Assembly: GCF_023702125.1 (NCBI RefSeq)
Contig: NZ_CP098415.1
Location: forward strand, 2,852,001-2,916,000
Reading direction: 5' to 3'
DNA: 64,000 nt
From: Halorubrum hochsteinianum
GTDB taxonomy: Archaea; Halobacteriota; Halobacteria; Halobacteriales; Haloferacaceae
In this document: in pieces, positions 2,658-58,456 of the stretch
Layout: the number at the start of each line of letters is the position of its first letter
How positions within the stretch are numbered: position 1 is the stretch's first letter
Translations under genes and position numbers: made by a program
The notes under the pieces: generated by a model
The model's input: only the letters and a program-made list of their open reading frames with translations
Databases searched by the model: none
What the model was told of the DNA's origin: nothing

Positions 2658-5354
2658 ATGCCCGACCGCATCCCGGTCCTCCTCGTCGACGACGACCCGG
2701 ACCTGCGCGAGGTCACCGCCTCGTTCCTGGAGCGAGAGGCGGACCGGATCGCGGTCGAGACGGCACCCGACGCGGCCGCCGGACTCGACGCGCTGGCCGA
2801 CTGCGAGATCGAGTGCGTCGTCTCCGACTTCGACATGCCGGGCCGAAACGGGCTGGAGTTCCTTGACGCCGTGCGCGAGCGCCACTCCGATCTCCCCTTC
2901 ATCCTGTTCACCGGGAAGGGGAGCGAGGAGGCCGCGAGCGAGGCCATCTCCGCCGGCGTCACCGACTACATTCAGAAGCGCGGCGGCACGGAGCGGTACG
3001 AGCGCTTGGCGAACCGGATCGTCGAGGCGGTCGAGAAGTGTCGGGCCGAACGGGAGGCCGAACAGGCGATCGAGCAGTTCCGCGCGGTCGCCAACGGCGC
3101 GTCGGACGCGATCCTCACGATCGACACCGACGGGGTGATCCGGTTCGCGAACCCGGCGGTCGAGTCCGTCTTCGGCCACGAGCCGGCGGCGATCGAGGGC
3201 GAGCCCCTGACGACGCTGCTACCGGAGCGACATCGCGAGACGGTCGACCGGCATCTTGACGGCGGCGACGGCGGCGTCGATCGCTCGGAGATCCGGTTCG
3301 ACGCGCGCCGCCGCGACGGCCGCGAGATACCCGTCTCCATGTCGTACGGGGAGTTCGCTGCCGACGGCGAGCGGCGGTTCGTCGGCGTGGTCCGCGACGA
3401 CGCCGGCCGCGACCAGCACCGGGCGTTCATCGAACACGCCGGCGACGTGGTCGCGGTGCTGTCGAGCGACTGGCGGTTCCGCTACCTGAGTCCGTCCTGC
3501 GAGCGCGTGACCGGGCACGCGCCGTCCGACCTGATCGGCGAGCGGTCGCTCGACTACGTCCACCCGGAGGACCGAGAGGCGGTCGAGGACGCGTTCGGCG
3601 AACTCGATCCGGACGGGACGCCCCCCACCGCCGAGTACCGGTTCCGGACGGCGGACGGCGACTACCGGTGGCTCGAGTCCGTCGGCAGCGACCGGATCGA
3701 CACCGACGACATCGAGGGGTACGTCGTCACCACGCGCGACGTCTCCGAGCGCAAGGAGCGCGAGCGGACGCTGTCGAAGCTCCGGGAGTGGACGCGGAAG
3801 CTCAACTACACCCGGACGACCGAGGAGGCGGCCGACCTCGCGATCGAGGCGGTCGACGACCTGATCGACGCCGGCCTGAGCGGAATCCACCTCCGAACCG
3901 AGGACGGGAAGCGCCTCGAACCGGCCGCGCTCGGGCAGTCCGTCGCGACGGAGTTCGAGACGCAGCCCTCGTACGACCGCGACGCGCCGCCCGGGTCGCG
4001 GGCGGCGTTGGTGCGGGACGCGTTCCGCGGCGAGGAGTCGGTCGTCATCGACGAGCTCTCCGCCTACGAGCCGCTCGACGAGCCCTCGCCCGCCGGGAGC
4101 CTCGTGTTGCGGCCGGTCGGCGACCACGGGGTGTTCGTCGTCTCCGCGCCGGAGCCGAACGTCTTCAGCGACACGGACGTCCTCGTGGCCGAGATCCTCT
4201 CGGGCCACCTGGAGGCGACCCTCGACCGCATCGAGCGCGAGGGGCGGGTGAAGCGGCTTCACAACGCCACCCGATCGCTCGTCAGCGCGGACTCGCCGGA
4301 GGGCGTCGCCGAGCGGGCGCTCGAGGCCGCGACCGACGTGTTGGGCTTCTCGCTCGTCGCCGTCCGGATCTACGACGAGGAGGCCGGCGGGCTGGTCCCC
4401 ATGGCGGTCTCGCCGGAGGCGGCCGACCTCCTCCCGGAACGGAAGACGTTCACCCCGGACGGGGGGACGATCACGTGGAAGGCGTTCGAGGCGGGCGAGA
4501 TCCGGATCTGCGACGACGTGGCGGAGAGCGGCGGGGTCGACGCCGACACTCCGCTCCGAAGCCTCCTCGTGGCTCCGATCGGCGAGTACGGGACCGTCTC
4601 GGTCGGCGAGACCGAGCCGGGGGTGTTCGGCGGCGGCGACGAGTACCTCGCCGGGATCTTGGCCACCGCCGCGGAGACGGCGCTTCAGGCCGAGGCGCGC
4701 ACCCGTCGGCTCGCCGAGCGGACCGCCGAGTTGGAGCGGCAGAACGACCGGTTAGAGGAGTTCGCGGGCGTGGTGTCGCACGACCTCCGGAACCCGCTGG
4801 AAGTCGCCCGGGGGCGGACCGAACTCGCCCGCGAGGAGTGCGACAGCGAGCACTTGGCGGCGGTCGGGCGCGCGCACGACCGGATGACCGCGCTGATCGA
4901 CGACCTGCTGACGCTCGCCCGGGAGGGCGACCCCGTGACCGACGCCGGACCGGTCGACCTCGGCCAGATCGTCGGCTCCTGCTGGCGGACGGTCGACACG
5001 AAGGAGGCGACGCTGCGCGTCGAGGCCGAGCGGATGATCGTCGCGGACGAAAGCCGGCTCAGACAGCTGTTGGAGAACCTGATGCGGAACGCGGTCGAAC
5101 ACGGCGGCGAGGGGGTGACGGTCACCGTGGGCTCGCTGCCGGACGGCTTCTACGTGGCCGACGACGGGCCGGGGATCGAACCGGAGCGGCGCGAGGAGGT
5201 GTTCGACGCCGGCCACTCGACCTCGGAGTCGGGGACCGGGTTCGGACTGCGGATCGTCGAGCAGGTGGCCGACGCCCACGGGTGGTCGGTCCGCGCCGTC
5301 GAGAGCGAAACCGGCGGCGCGCGGTTCGAGATCACCGGCGTCGAGGTGCGGTGA
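2658..5354 (+). CDS. Hybrid response regulator/PAS/GAF sensor histidine kinase
   Basis: An 898-residue soluble signalling protein. Domains in order: receiver domain (about 1-125, phospho-acceptor Asp57 in VVSDFDMPG, conserved Lys in DYIQKRG); two PAS domains (about 138-250 and 252-370, the second ending TTRDVSERKERE); two GAF-like domains (about 385-515 and 540-680); HisKA with His708 in VVSHDLRNP; and HATPase_c (NLMRNAVEHGG, DDGPGIEPE, GTGFGLRIV). No membrane segment is visible, so it probably senses an intracellular signal. A receiver domain at the N-terminus of a kinase is common in haloarchaea. No cognate output regulator lies next to it, so the input and target are unknown. Confidence 0.9.
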   Translation: MPDRIPVLLVDDDPDLREVTASFLEREADRIAVETAPDAAAGLDALADCEIECVVSDFDMPGRNGLEFLDAVRERHSDLPFILFTGKGSEEAASEAISAGVTDYIQKRGGTERYERLANRIVEAVEKCRAEREAEQAIEQFRAVANGASDAILTIDTDGVIRFANPAVESVFGHEPAAIEGEPLTTLLPERHRETVDRHLDGGDGGVDRSEIRFDARRRDGREIPVSMSYGEFAADGERRFVGVVRDDAGRDQHRAFIEHAGDVVAVLSSDWRFRYLSPSCERVTGHAPSDLIGERSLDYVHPEDREAVEDAFGELDPDGTPPTAEYRFRTADGDYRWLESVGSDRIDTDDIEGYVVTTRDVSERKERERTLSKLREWTRKLNYTRTTEEAADLAIEAVDDLIDAGLSGIHLRTEDGKRLEPAALGQSVATEFETQPSYDRDAPPGSRAALVRDAFRGEESVVIDELSAYEPLDEPSPAGSLVLRPVGDHGVFVVSAPEPNVFSDTDVLVAEILSGHLEATLDRIEREGRVKRLHNATRSLVSADSPEGVAERALEAATDVLGFSLVAVRIYDEEAGGLVPMAVSPEAADLLPERKTFTPDGGTITWKAFEAGEIRICDDVAESGGVDADTPLRSLLVAPIGEYGTVSVGETEPGVFGGGDEYLAGILATAAETALQAEARTRRLAERTAELERQNDRLEEFAGVVSHDLRNPLEVARGRTELAREECDSEHLAAVGRAHDRMTALIDDLLTLAREGDPVTDAGPVDLGQIVGSCWRTVDTKEATLRVEAERMIVADESRLRQLLENLMRNAVEHGGEGVTVTVGSLPDGFYVADDGPGIEPERREEVFDAGHSTSESGTGFGLRIVEQVADAHGWSVRAVESETGGARFEITGVEVR

Positions 5355-15039: not shown

Positions 15040-16320
15040 ATGAGCGTTCTCGACAACGACGAGTACCGCGAGTTCCGACGCGACCTCCACCGCCACCCCG
15101 AGCCGGCGTGGCGCGAGTTCTACACCACCGCCCGCATCGTCGAGGCCCTGCGCGAGCGCGACCTGACGGCGCTTCACGTCGGTCCCGAGGCGCTGGCGAC
15201 CGAGGAGCGGCTGAACGTCCCGGACGACGACGAACTGGCCGAGTGGGAGGACCAGGCCCGCGAGGCGGGCGCGGACCCCGAGATTCTGGACCAGATCTCC
15301 GGCGGCTACACCGGCTGCGTCGCCGTCGTGGAGCGCGGCGAGGGCCCCGTTGTCGGCCTGCGCGTCGACATCGACGGACTCCCGATCACGGAGTCGGAGG
15401 AGGGAGACCACGTCCCGGCCGGAGAGGGGTTCCGCTCCGAGCACGAGGGGTTCATGCACGCCTGCGGCCACGACGCCCACGCGACGATGGGGCTCGGCGC
15501 GCTCGACGCCGTCCTCGACTCCGACTTCGCCGGCACGCTGAAGGTGTTCTTCCAGCCGGGCGAGGAGCAGGTCGCGGGCGGCAAGCCGATGGCCGAATCC
15601 GGACACCTCGACGACGTCGACTACCTCTACGCGGTCCACGTCGGCCTCGATCACCCCTCCGGCGAGGTCGTCTGCGGCGTCGAGGGGTTCCTCGCGGTGC
15701 GCCACCTGCTCGCGGAGTTCGAGGGCGAACCGGCCCACGCCGGCGCGCGCCCCGAGCAGGGCCGGAACGCGGTCCAGGCGATGGCGGCGGCGGTCCAGAA
15801 CCTCTACGGCATCCCACGCCACGCCGACGGGCCGACCCGAGTGAACGCCGGCCTCGTCGGGGGCGGCACCGCGACGAACATCATCCCCGAGGAGTCGCAC
15901 ATCGAGGGCGAACTGCGGGGACAGACGACCGAACTGGCCGAGTACATGTCCGACCATGCCGACCGCATCCTGAACTCGGCCGCGGAGATGCACGACTGCG
16001 AGGTGGAGATATCGACGCTCGGCGAGGCCCCCAGCGCGACGAGCGACGACGCGCTCGCCGGCCTCGTCCGGGAGTCCGCGGGCGACGTCGCGGGCGTCAC
16101 GAGCATCGTCGACAGCGACGACCTCGGCGGCTCCGAGGACGCGACGTACCTGATGAACTACGTCCAAGACCGGGGCGGACTCGCCTGCTACCTCGGCGTC
16201 GGAACCGATCACCCCGGCGGCCACCACACCAGCGACTTCGACGTCGTCGAAGACGACATCTCGATCGGCATCGACGTGATCGCCGGCGCGATCCGACGCG
16301 TGGCCGAGACGCGGCCGTAG
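15040..16320 (+). CDS. M20 family metallo-amidohydrolase/carboxypeptidase
   Basis: A 426-residue zinc hydrolase of the M20 amidohydrolase group (hippurate hydrolase, N-acyl-amino-acid or aminobenzoyl-glutamate hydrolase relatives). Metal and catalytic motifs are visible: LRVDIDGLP, then HACGHDAHATMGLG, then FQPGEEQVAGGKPM, with a late histidine in GTDHPGGHHTSDFD. The dimerisation domain lies around 200-310 (LLAEFEGEPAHAGARPEQGRN). The region between about 55 and 90 contains an insertion compared with bacterial homologues. It probably releases amino acids or aromatic acids from N-acyl conjugates in the cytoplasm. The substrate cannot be read from the sequence. Confidence 0.87.
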   Translation: MSVLDNDEYREFRRDLHRHPEPAWREFYTTARIVEALRERDLTALHVGPEALATEERLNVPDDDELAEWEDQAREAGADPEILDQISGGYTGCVAVVERGEGPVVGLRVDIDGLPITESEEGDHVPAGEGFRSEHEGFMHACGHDAHATMGLGALDAVLDSDFAGTLKVFFQPGEEQVAGGKPMAESGHLDDVDYLYAVHVGLDHPSGEVVCGVEGFLAVRHLLAEFEGEPAHAGARPEQGRNAVQAMAAAVQNLYGIPRHADGPTRVNAGLVGGGTATNIIPEESHIEGELRGQTTELAEYMSDHADRILNSAAEMHDCEVEISTLGEAPSATSDDALAGLVRESAGDVAGVTSIVDSDDLGGSEDATYLMNYVQDRGGLACYLGVGTDHPGGHHTSDFDVVEDDISIGIDVIAGAIRRVAETRP

Positions 16321-16329
16321 CGGGACTGG

Positions 16330-16690
16330 GCCTCAAAAACACCAATTTTGGGACATAATGTGGGACGGTGGCGCGTGCCTGCGAGCGGCCGACAGGCCGC
16401 GAGCCAGCACGCGCGAGGGAGTCGCTCGCCGCAGGCGAGCGACGAGGCTGGGGAGGCGTGAGGTGCTGTTGCTGTGTGGGGCGGGAATCGAAGGGGCAGC
16501 CGGGAGGCGGGCGCAGGCGACGGTAGGACCGCAGCGAGTGAGCAACGCGAACGAGCGAGGACCGCCCCGAGCGTGCGCCCGCCTCCCGGCTGGGGCTTCG
16601 GTGGTGTTCGTGTTGATCTGTGATTTACGAGCGGCTACTGCGGCGTACACCCTCGCTGACGGTCGACGCCGTAGCCGCACGGACTGTACT
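16330..16690. repeat. Structured G+C-rich non-coding element with several inverted repeats (haloarchaeal dispersed repeat)
   Basis: This gap of about 370 bases holds no convincing gene but is highly structured. A perfect 19-bp inverted repeat (CAGCCGGGAGGCGGGCGCA, 16497-16515; partner 16574-16592) encloses 58 bases. A perfect 10-bp hairpin with a 3-base loop lies at 16421-16443 (GTCGCTCGCC-GCA-GGCGAGCGAC). An imperfect long hairpin lies at about 16371-16413, and a further hairpin at about 16631-16679 (GCGGCTAC/GTAGCCGC). From memory, elements of this kind recur many times in Halorubrum genomes and are often mis-annotated as short proteins. That was not checked by search. Open frames across it are composition artefacts. 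Confidence 0.7.
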
Positions 16691-16694
16691 CAAT

Positions 16695-17141
16695 TCAGAA
16701 CGTCAGGTGCGAACTCGACGACGGCCCCTCGTCGTCGCCGTCGTCGTCGGGTAACTCCTCGTAGAGGTAGGTGAGGTCGTCGTCGGTGAGGAACACCGCG
16801 CCGTCGCGGACGGCCACGTCGACCTCCCGCAGCGTCGTCCCCGCGGCCTCGCCGTTGTCACAGGAGCCGTCGCAGGCGTCGAACGCCGAGCCGTGCTTCG
16901 GGCAGACGACCGACCCGCCGCGGGTGACCGCGCCGATATCCTCACGATAGAGTCGCTGGTCCTCGTGGGTACAGCGGTTGATCCACGCGCGGACGGGACC
17001 CTCGCCGTCCTGTGTCTCTCCCGGCTCGTCGACGCAGGGCACGAGGAACACCTCGCGGTCGGCGTCGCCCTCGCGGGCCGTGAACGCCCACGAGCCCGCC
17101 TCGCGCACGGTCTCGACGGTCGTGAGTCGGTAGTCGGTCAT
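16695..17141 (-). CDS. Rieske [2Fe-2S] domain protein
   Basis: A 148-residue small soluble Rieske-type protein, likely an electron carrier or a ferredoxin component for an oxygenase. Cluster ligands are the pairs CTH (in NRCTHEDQ, about residue 57) and CPKH (in VVCPKHGSAFD, about residue 80), followed by DACDGSCDNGEA. The C-terminus is an acidic, serine-rich tail. It is immediately downstream of the geranylgeranyl-reductase gene (27 bases, same strand), so the two may be one transcript. Rieske proteins could then supply electrons to the reductase (inference). Confidence 0.88.
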   Translation of the reverse strand: MTDYRLTTVETVREAGSWAFTAREGDADREVFLVPCVDEPGETQDGEGPVRAWINRCTHEDQRLYREDIGAVTRGGSVVCPKHGSAFDACDGSCDNGEAAGTTLREVDVAVRDGAVFLTDDDLTYLYEELPDDDGDDEGPSSSSHLTF

Positions 17142-54421: not shown

Positions 54422-55110
54422 GTGTTCAGATAAGGTTTGAAAGTGAGGCGGTGCGTTTTCAAAGTGTTCTATGCCAGAAAACGACCGCCTCAGCGGCTGT
54501 TTAGACGAGATCAACTTAGAGTTTGTGGAGCGAGAAGCAACACCGAAGCTGTTGATGAAGCTCAGTATTCAGCTCCATTTGTCTGGACTATCGCTTTCGA
54601 ATACTGTTTCGTTTCTTGAGGTATTCGGTGTTGATCGAGTTCGATCGACCGTTCATAACTGGGTTCATAAAGCCGACCTACAGCCGGAATCGGATCGGAA
54701 CCCGAATCACGTCGCGGTTGATGAGACCGTGATTCAACTCGATACTGAGCAATATTGGCTGTACGCTGCTGTCGATCCCGAATCAAATGATCTGCTACAC
54801 ACACGGCTTGAACCGACGAGAAATAACGCGATCGCAGATCGGTTTTTCGCGGAACTCCGCGAAAAACACGACGTAGATGACGCGATCTTTCTCGTTGATG
54901 GTGCGGCTCCACTTCAGCGAGCCTGTCGTAAACACGGCCTCGATTTCAGATACGAACGACATGGAAATCGGAACAGCGTCGAACGTGTCTTTCGTGAGGT
55001 AAAACGCAGAACTACCAGTTTCTCAAACTGTTTCAGCAACGCCGAAGCAGAAACAGCAAACGAGTGGCTCAGATCCTTTGCCTTCGCATGGAATCAGCTT
55101 ATCTGAACAC
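54422..55110 (+). mobile_element. IS6-family insertion sequence (copy 1)
   Basis: A 689-base element bounded by perfect 13-bp terminal inverted repeats GTGTTCAGATAAG (54422-54434; right end 55098-55110). It holds one transposase gene whose stop lies in the right repeat. No clean 8-base target duplication is visible. Instead TACCTAACGATG on the left and TACCCTAACGATG on the right form an imperfect direct repeat of about 17 bases. The element looks complete. Confidence 0.88.
54471..55106 (+). CDS. IS6-family transposase
   Basis: A 211-residue DDE transposase of the haloarchaeal IS6 type. Catalytic residues are recognisable: first Asp in HVAVDETVIQLD, second in AIFLVDGAAPL, and Glu in HGNRNSVERVFREVKRR. 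An N-terminal helix-turn-helix-like region precedes (LSLSNTVSFLEVFGVDRVRSTVHNWV). Full length for the family, with no frameshift, so probably active. About 60 percent similar by eye to the second copy at 57815. Confidence 0.9.
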   Translation: MPENDRLSGCLDEINLEFVEREATPKLLMKLSIQLHLSGLSLSNTVSFLEVFGVDRVRSTVHNWVHKADLQPESDRNPNHVAVDETVIQLDTEQYWLYAAVDPESNDLLHTRLEPTRNNAIADRFFAELREKHDVDDAIFLVDGAAPLQRACRKHGLDFRYERHGNRNSVERVFREVKRRTTSFSNCFSNAEAETANEWLRSFAFAWNQLI

Positions 55111-57772: not shown

Positions 57773-58456
57773 GTGTTAAGTTAAGAACGAGGCGGCCGGT
57801 GTTTCGAATGCTCTATGTCCGAATCCAACCGCCTCGACGGCTGTACAGGATGGATCGACTTGGAGTTTGTGGAGCGTGAGCGGACACCCCACGAGATCAT
57901 TGAAACCGGTATTCGACTCCATCTTGCCGGACTATCACTCTCGAATACCAAACAGTATCTTGAAAGGTTGGGTGTCGAGCGGAGTCGAACAGCAATTCAC
58001 AACTGGATTCAAAAGGCCGACCTACAGCCAGTTGACGGTGCGAGCCCGAATCGCGTTGCGGTTGATGAGACTGCGATTCAGATCGATTCGGACAGATACT
58101 GGCTGTATGCTGCTGTAGATCCTCGCACAAACGAATTCCTCCATGTTGACGTATTTCCCGTCCAAAGCAAACAATTCACGCTGGTATTTCTCCGCGATCT
58201 TAGAGAGAAACACCACGTTGAGGATGCGCTATTTCTCGTTGATGCTGGCGGACACCTCACAGCAGCACTCTCACGAACCTCACTTCGATTTCAAATCACT
58301 CGTCATGGAAATCGGAATGCCATCGAACGTGTCTTTCGAGAAGTAAAACGACGGACCTCTTCGTTTTCAAATACGTTTAGAAATGCGGAGCCGACGGCAG
58401 CAGAATCGTGGCTCCGAGCCTTCGCCGTCTGCTGGAACCGATGCTTAAGTTAACAC
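57773..58456 (+). mobile_element. IS6-family insertion sequence (copy 2)
   Basis: A 684-base element with 13-bp terminal repeats GTGTTAAGTTAAG (57773-57785) and CTTAAGTTAACAC (58444-58456), 12 of 13 complementary. One transposase gene, with the stop inside the right repeat. It is different from copy 1 (repeats differ by several bases), so the two did not arise from a recent duplication. Same orientation as copy 1. Confidence 0.88.
57815..58453 (+). CDS. IS6-family transposase
   Basis: A 212-residue DDE transposase related to the copy at 54471. First Asp in RVAVDETAIQID, second in ALFLVDAGGHL, Glu in HGNRNAIERVFREVKRR. N-terminal zone LSLSNTKQYLERLGVERSRTAIHNWI. Intact and full length, so probably active. 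Confidence 0.9.
   Translation: MSESNRLDGCTGWIDLEFVERERTPHEIIETGIRLHLAGLSLSNTKQYLERLGVERSRTAIHNWIQKADLQPVDGASPNRVAVDETAIQIDSDRYWLYAAVDPRTNEFLHVDVFPVQSKQFTLVFLRDLREKHHVEDALFLVDAGGHLTAALSRTSLRFQITRHGNRNAIERVFREVKRRTSSFSNTFRNAEPTAAESWLRAFAVCWNRCLS

Follow-up and report, generated by a model that had tools for sequence, protein, structure and literature searches.

A dispersed intergenic element of Halorubrum hochsteinianum with a maintained fold belongs to an old family of the Halobacteria

In the 64,000-nt stretch of the Halorubrum hochsteinianum genome analysed here (hereafter, the window), a Peptidase_M20 and a Rieske gene converge on an interval that the initial annotation described as a structured non-coding element of about 360 bases (16330-16690). 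Its statement that no gene is present held, in that Pfam had no family for either of the two open reading frames across the element (115 and 138 aa). The described structure is likewise real: the perfect 19-bp inverted repeat around a 58-base loop and the perfect 10-bp hairpin with a loop of 3 bases were both found as claimed, the former nested in a longer imperfect pair, and two additional hairpins are present (Table 1). However, one of these additional hairpins is not part of the sequence that recurs elsewhere, and the repeated unit itself covers only 16366 to about 16622. The left end of this unit is sharp, at CGGTGGCGCGTGCC, while its right side grades into a tail of 40- to 63-bp units that are frequently repeated and terminate in CGTACAGCCGAGCGRCTGGGGCTTCGG. 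The TATA-like motif present in the tails of other copies has decayed here (GATTTACGAG). At C1:452485-452700, adjoining another copy, the tail motif GGGGCTTCGG occurs as four direct repeats at 63-bp spacing.

The fold predicted for 16366-16622 beat dinucleotide shuffles on either strand (z -3.78 for + and -5.37 for -), with none of 200 shuffles equalling it. Rfam gave no match reaching the gathering score among six loci of the family, and in the window there were two matches below the cut-off, the best at 15.6 bits against 50, in 16200-16348 and outside the unit.

Table 1. Features at the M20-Rieske junction (window coordinates)
Feature	Position	Strand	Basis
Peptidase_M20 gene	15040-16320	+	Pfam
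Whole repeated unit, P3-P2-linker-P1-start of tail	16366..16622 (right end approximate)	+	homology limits, copy ends
Match of covariance model R1	16366-16609		covariance model
P3 hairpin	16371..16414	+	pairing kept, stem letters variable between copies (covariation)
P3 arms, 20 nt, complementarity 80%	16371-16390 / 16395-16414		
P2 hairpin, 10 bp perfect, 3-base loop	16421..16443	+	stem exchanged wholesale across copies and orthologues
P2 arms	16421-16430 / 16434-16443		
Conserved linker GAGGCTGGGGAGGCGTGAGG	16444..16463	+	invariant alignment columns
G tracts GGGGCGGGAATCGAAGGGGC, conserved, 5' of P1; form in other genera GGGYGGGAYTGAAAGGGGC	16478..16497	+	alignment, G4Hunter
P1 module, the cross-genus core	16489..16600	+	alignment, covariation
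30-nt pair, 87% complementary	16489-16518 / 16571-16600		
P1 outer stem CGAAG/CTTCG, then G/G internal loop	within 16489..16600	+	
P1 long stem (19-bp repeat)	16497-16515 / 16574-16592	+	
P1 inner part, purine-rich (58-base loop)	16516-16573	+	
Tail, related to the 40-63 bp units common after P1	16601..16652	+	copy ends
Extra hairpin (83%), beyond the unit	16628-16645 / 16664-16681		
Rieske gene	16695-17141	-	Pfam

The search for further copies proposed with the initial annotation found many. A DNA search of the H. hochsteinianum genome (3.06 Mb, two contigs) returned at least 40, the others sharing 75-89% identity with the query, together with some short fragments. Covariance model R1, made from an alignment of 25 of 30 fetched copies (A1; five omitted), gave at least 143 matches with an E value of 1e-3 or better, from the best 150 of 6,510 candidates, of which at least 89 are full-length, with scores of 138 bits or higher. 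The 143 matches listed are all on the main chromosome (C1), and none is on the 101-kb C2. Among the sampled genomes of the genus, all 52 carry the element, H. hochsteinianum included. Gene context was read for 79 copies, ten of the 89 being left out for want of 1.3-kb flanks; ends, identities and motifs were counted in 71, leaving out 18 without flanks or recognisable ends.

None of the 79 copies lies inside a called gene. They divide into 21 at convergent, 47 at tandem (29 along and 18 opposite the model strand) and 11 at divergent junctions, compared with 11, 24 and 10 gene pairs, respectively, in the window. In other genera, none of the 80 copies listed is in a gene, and 13 are convergent, 40 tandem (26/14), 23 divergent and 4 have unclear neighbours, against a background of 91 convergent, 254 tandem and 76 divergent gene pairs. 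We see no strong preference for orientation or gene context, and the convergent M20/Rieske setting, while correctly described, is incidental to the family.

Spacing along the chromosome was no different from random (CV 0.90 vs 0.985; p 0.20), and regular spacing was therefore rejected. In three relatives (G016, G035 and G037), the 150 matches listed of 182 are all on the largest replicon, other replicons making up 26, 10 and 10% of these genomes; a model restricted to P1 (R2, see below) also matched the 526-kb replicon of G016 once. Plasmid records held one partial match in 72,556, on a Halorubrum salinarum plasmid, and among the matches listed one P1 core is on a Halorientalis plasmid. With no phage match and the one partial plasmid match, a phage or plasmid origin was rejected. 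The non-main replicons of H. lacusprofundi are reported to be lower in G+C (PMC6011602), so a different origin of such replicons may account for the missing copies.

Candidate promoters occur in a minority of copies. In 10 of 71 copies TTATAA precedes the left end of the unit by 14-18 bp, from where a transcript would begin inside P3, and in 13 of 71 it lies to the right of P1, at a distance of 23 bp. A promoter of the element's own on the - strand was rejected because the latter motif is in only those 13 copies and wobble pairs favour the opposite strand (see below), although the TATA-to-helix distance does suit such a promoter in copies with a 63-bp tail. The 103 other-genus cores listed showed no AT-run peak. 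Immediately left of the unit, the 71 own copies have an A/T-rich patch from -21 to -5 (~0.55 vs 0.33), which may be an insertion preference or a promoter remnant.

Beyond the genus, R1 matched 133 of 170 family genomes and 281 of 392 order genomes (genus included in both), counts that we discount since R1 is dominated by GC-rich stems. We read 28 R1 loci outside the genus and then built the separate P1-only model R2. At 1e-6, R2 matched 62 of 392 phylum genomes, all in the same genus, family or order; it found no match outside the order, and several genomes of the order were also without one. What recurs in many genera of the order is a P1 core of ~120 nt. A pattern scan of named genomes recovered at least 120 such stretches, in Haloarcula, Halobacterium, Natrinema, Halosimplex, Halonotius, Haloparvum, Halolamina, Halobaculum and others. 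Depending on the test, other-genus subsets of 116, 80, 103, 113, 100 and 80 of these matches were used, the remainder being left out because they ran into the end of a locus, came from a short locus, were duplicates or had no end motif. G3NG3 precedes the core in 97 of 116 matches listed and GGGGCTTTC follows it in 106, neither being fixed by the pattern. In the 113 cores listed, a second, inverted P1 motif lies upstream in 35, at a distance of 34-46 bp in 30 of them; a P2/P3-like domain accompanies 13, and 65 have neither feature. A haloarchaeal-type P1 core also turned up in a metagenome-assembled genome labelled Bacteroidetes bacterium QS_9_68_14 (L260), whose scaffold is probably mis-binned. 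The sequence GTGGGAYTGAA may resemble haloarchaeal CRISPR repeats.

Is the fold itself maintained? RNAalifold placed 51 pairs on the 25 H. hochsteinianum copies of A1, 31 of which show at least one compensatory double change. For the wider family we used A3, an alignment of 38 of 105 P1 cores from other haloarchaeal genera among the matches listed, in which the invariance of TGAAAGGGGC and ACGCAAGCACCGCAG, fixed by the scan pattern, and of GGGGCTTTC, fixed by selection for A3, is not evidence. Of its paired cells 96.6% do pair, compared with 80.2% after shuffling and no more than 48.9% after sliding the partners. Both sides have changed in 14 of 27 pairs; there are 147 double-changed cells where 42.9 are expected, and the covariation score is 0.395 against 0.101, with none of 500 shuffles as high. 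An additional test took the stem arms directly, without a structure-fitted alignment. In 80 distinct other-genus cores listed, 585 of 640 cells (91.4%) were Watson-Crick pairs, against 44.6% when arms were re-dealt; in 57 H. hochsteinianum stem pairs (from 71 copies, three dropped and identical arms merged), the figures were 774 of 855 (90.5%) and 72.7%. The P1 core, and in Halorubrum P2 and P3 too, thus retains pairing while the letters of its stems change. With copies numerous and covariation strong in all three data sets, the description as a dispersed structured non-coding element is supported, and we conclude that the unit in the window belongs, as a single copy, to an old intergenic family that is present in many copies in Halobacteria.

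The stems also carry a strand signal. On the + strand, which reads P3-P2-P1, G.U pairs outnumber A.C by 72 to 41 in 97 matches from this genome and its relatives, by 18 to 3 in A3 (other genera, among the matches listed) and by 13 to 4 in the 80 other-genus stems listed (p 0.049), the cells being non-independent in all three counts. The signal is clearer outside the genus than within Halorubrum, where counting per pair in the 97 copies gave a weak 22 pairs against 11 (p 0.08) and the 57 own outer stems gave 18 against 12, which is not significant (p 0.36). Mismatches on the + strand of these 57 stems are 42 G.A/A.G to 1 C.T/T.C, although 36 of the 42 stem from two neighbouring positions in 18 copies. 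Together, wobble pairs and G.A mismatches suggest that the + strand acts as a folded single strand, either RNA or single-stranded DNA. A double-stranded cruciform or palindrome would show no such asymmetry and is therefore a poor fit. Since copies divide 45/44 between the chromosome strands, an effect of the replication strand is ill-suited as well, and RNA becomes the more natural reading. The median G4Hunter maximum is 1.60 in the 71 copies, compared with 0.92 in their flanks, and the G tracts ahead of P1 are predicted to be capable of forming a G-quadruplex.

The same asymmetry weighs on a DNA-level explanation, in which the copies are REP/BIME-like chromosome elements that are extruded as hairpins or serve as binding sites for a nucleoid, topology or condensation factor. 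We regard this as somewhat unlikely. It would accommodate the extragenic position of all 79 own and 80 listed other-genus copies in both orientations, the inverted pairs (35 of 113 listed cores), and the restriction of full-length copies to main chromosomes among the matches listed, with the single partial hit in plasmid records. Against it stand the strand-asymmetric wobble and G.A pairs, the irregular spacing and the P1 sequences on the G016 replicon and the Halorientalis plasmid; in addition, the lower replicon G+C (PMC6011602) offers a different origin as a possible explanation for absent copies. Bacterial REP/BIME and the element are both extragenic, palindromic and high in copy number and occur singly or as inverted pairs with a linker, such pairs of our element being seen in other genera. 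The element is, however, ~120-250 nt long and internally structured with conserved loops, compared with 20-40 bp for REP units (PMC3733652). Moreover, REP/BIME go with RAYT, and the H. hochsteinianum genome lacks a Y1/RAYT-type transposase: PF01797 had no match (control positive), and mobilisation by IS200/IS605 or RAYT was rejected.

If not by such enzymes, do the copies move at all? Of the 15 relatives read at the M20-Rieske site, many carry the element, G038 and G032 have it in shortened form, and G011, G008 and G019 lack it. A second site, S1 (L330 4692-4947), is occupied in 6 of 10 relatives, with a shorter copy in G038; a remnant is left in G032 and nothing in G028, and in G021 and G047 a rearrangement breakpoint falls at the site. 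Nearest-neighbour identity among the 71 own copies has a median of 0.87 and a maximum of 0.912, and orthologues, compared between this genome and G046, are no closer than paralogues (S1: 89%); the S1 copies of G042 and G050 are identical. With the closest own pair at 91.2% and orthologues no closer than paralogues, there is no sign of a recent burst of multiplication in Halorubrum. In this genus, full-length copies are spread across the main chromosome, and species have them at sites in common. The P2 and P3 stems differ blockwise between orthologues, which suggests conversion between copies or repeated renewal of stems. Some copies contain inserted small double hairpins with arbitrary stems (the P1 arm of L050, L330 at ~4650-4700, L023 and L052), examples being CCGGCGGC..GCCGCCGG, CTGCC and AGAGGCGC..GCGCCTC, and the P1 loop of L050 has the opposite orientation to its flanks; a strict scan for such inserts within the 64-kb window found none.

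Two inverted copies, S2 and S3 (L330 10269-10535 and 17008-17299; C1:2114269 and 2121008), bound a 6.7-kb segment that is collinear in 2 of 10 relatives (G046 and G045), whereas the remaining eight have it inverted, which places the copies at inversion endpoints; G032 had no copy at S2/S3 at the threshold used. Repeated copies would offer homology for chromosomal inversions, and may have caused these.

The initial annotation had offered a mobile non-coding element as one reading. In Halorubrum mobility is not seen, given the lack of near-identical copies, the lack of inverted-repeat ends and the sites common to species; signs of an IS6-type mobile form are confined to some other genera. The IS6-type transposons of H. 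hochsteinianum end in GGTAGTGTTCAGATAAG, with 8-bp duplications in the two copies read (L371 and L360), and those of other genomes end in close variants of this sequence. DDE_Tnp_IS240 has 20 matches in this genome, 7 with one shared core; two transposase matches of this type are in the window, at 54711-55025 and 58052-58387. Among the 100 other-genus cores listed, a right motif resembling CTGAACASTACC was found in 23 (chance 1.3%), a left motif in 30 (chance 8.8%) and both in 12, at mostly fixed distances. These motifs resemble the ends of the IS6-type elements, so that in some lineages P1 probably travelled between such ends. IS6-type ends occur in 0 of 71 Halorubrum copies on the left and 0 of 71 on the right, and no matching flanks indicative of an 8-bp target duplication were seen by eye in the 12 two-ended units of other genera.

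These ends leave room for a purely transposon-based reading, that of a decaying non-autonomous IS6-type MITE family without a function for the cell, whose palindromes persist by gene conversion and template switching. Despite the IS6-like inverted repeats and the blockwise swapping of P2/P3 stems between orthologues, which it would explain, we consider this improbable: Halorubrum copies are without such ends, none are nearly identical although seven IS6 copies share a core, and it is the unpaired loops of P1 and the G tracts, not the ends, that are conserved across families. Compared with IS6-family MITEs, the P1 unit of some genera (197-218 bp) is likewise non-coding with imperfect IS6-like inverted repeats, yet target duplications are not visible, the Halorubrum copies have no such ends and conservation is higher in the interior than at the ends. 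The PATEs of Haloquadratum walsbyi, tied to IS605-type elements, and the SMRs (PMC3119063) are also haloarchaeal, non-coding and multi-copy, with near-terminal palindromes and, as in Halorubrum copies, no terminal inverted repeats. By description, our element differs from the PATEs in that its genome has no PF01797 match.

A bidirectional transcription terminator or 3'-end stabiliser is very improbable: where the P3 end is turned towards the end of a gene, it follows the stop codon in many cases by only 7-60 bp, and 21 of 79 copies are at convergent junctions, but tandem copies, own or listed from other genera, show no clear bias and divergent junctions hold 11 of 79 and 23 of 80, respectively; the lack of a clear orientation bias to genes likewise led us to reject a riboswitch, leader or terminator.

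We tentatively favour, at somewhat short of an even chance, an old dispersed family that is kept for what its folded + strand does, probably as a + strand transcript, that is, a putative RNA. A transposon alone would leave the kept P1 loops and G tracts and the lost ends unexplained, the neutral orientation is at odds with a terminator or leader, and the asymmetry with a double-stranded palindrome. That selection acts on the folded + strand, as RNA before DNA, we hold with moderate confidence. Copies would have dispersed in the distant past, flanked by IS6-type ends in some lineages, and would now be retained for the action of this strand. Its transcription would yield a structured RNA based on a purine-rich hairpin closed by G tracts. 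In a cytoplasm rich in potassium these tracts could stack into a G-quadruplex, and the hairpin so closed could present a protein-binding surface. Counted against the RNA reading are the ~90 copies, unusual for an RNA gene, and the fact that most copies have no promoter at a fixed, suitable place; in addition, with orthologues no closer than paralogues, gene conversion could also hold the fold. HEARO-type RNAs, which are structured, have many stand-alone copies per genome and are associated with a nuclease gene, share with the element its structured, multi-copy and stand-alone nature, and the element has no Rfam match.

The element was not met in the literature searched, which did not extend to supplements. 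It is possible, if doubtful, that it represents an undescribed, order-wide family of structured RNAs, with tens of copies in many genomes, a hairpin closed by G tracts around a purine-rich core, a modular build (alone, in inverted pairs or with P2/P3), IS6-type ends in some lineages and a main-chromosome location in Halorubrum. In any case, a well-folded, covarying element extends across an entire archaeal order, often in dozens of copies, without an Rfam match. Alignment A3 and models R1 and R2 make the question of its nature testable on RNA sequencing data that already exist for haloarchaea. Transcription would make it a major RNA family of these archaea, and action as DNA an architectural unit specific to the chromosome. 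In both cases it may influence gene order, as inversion endpoints coincide with copies.
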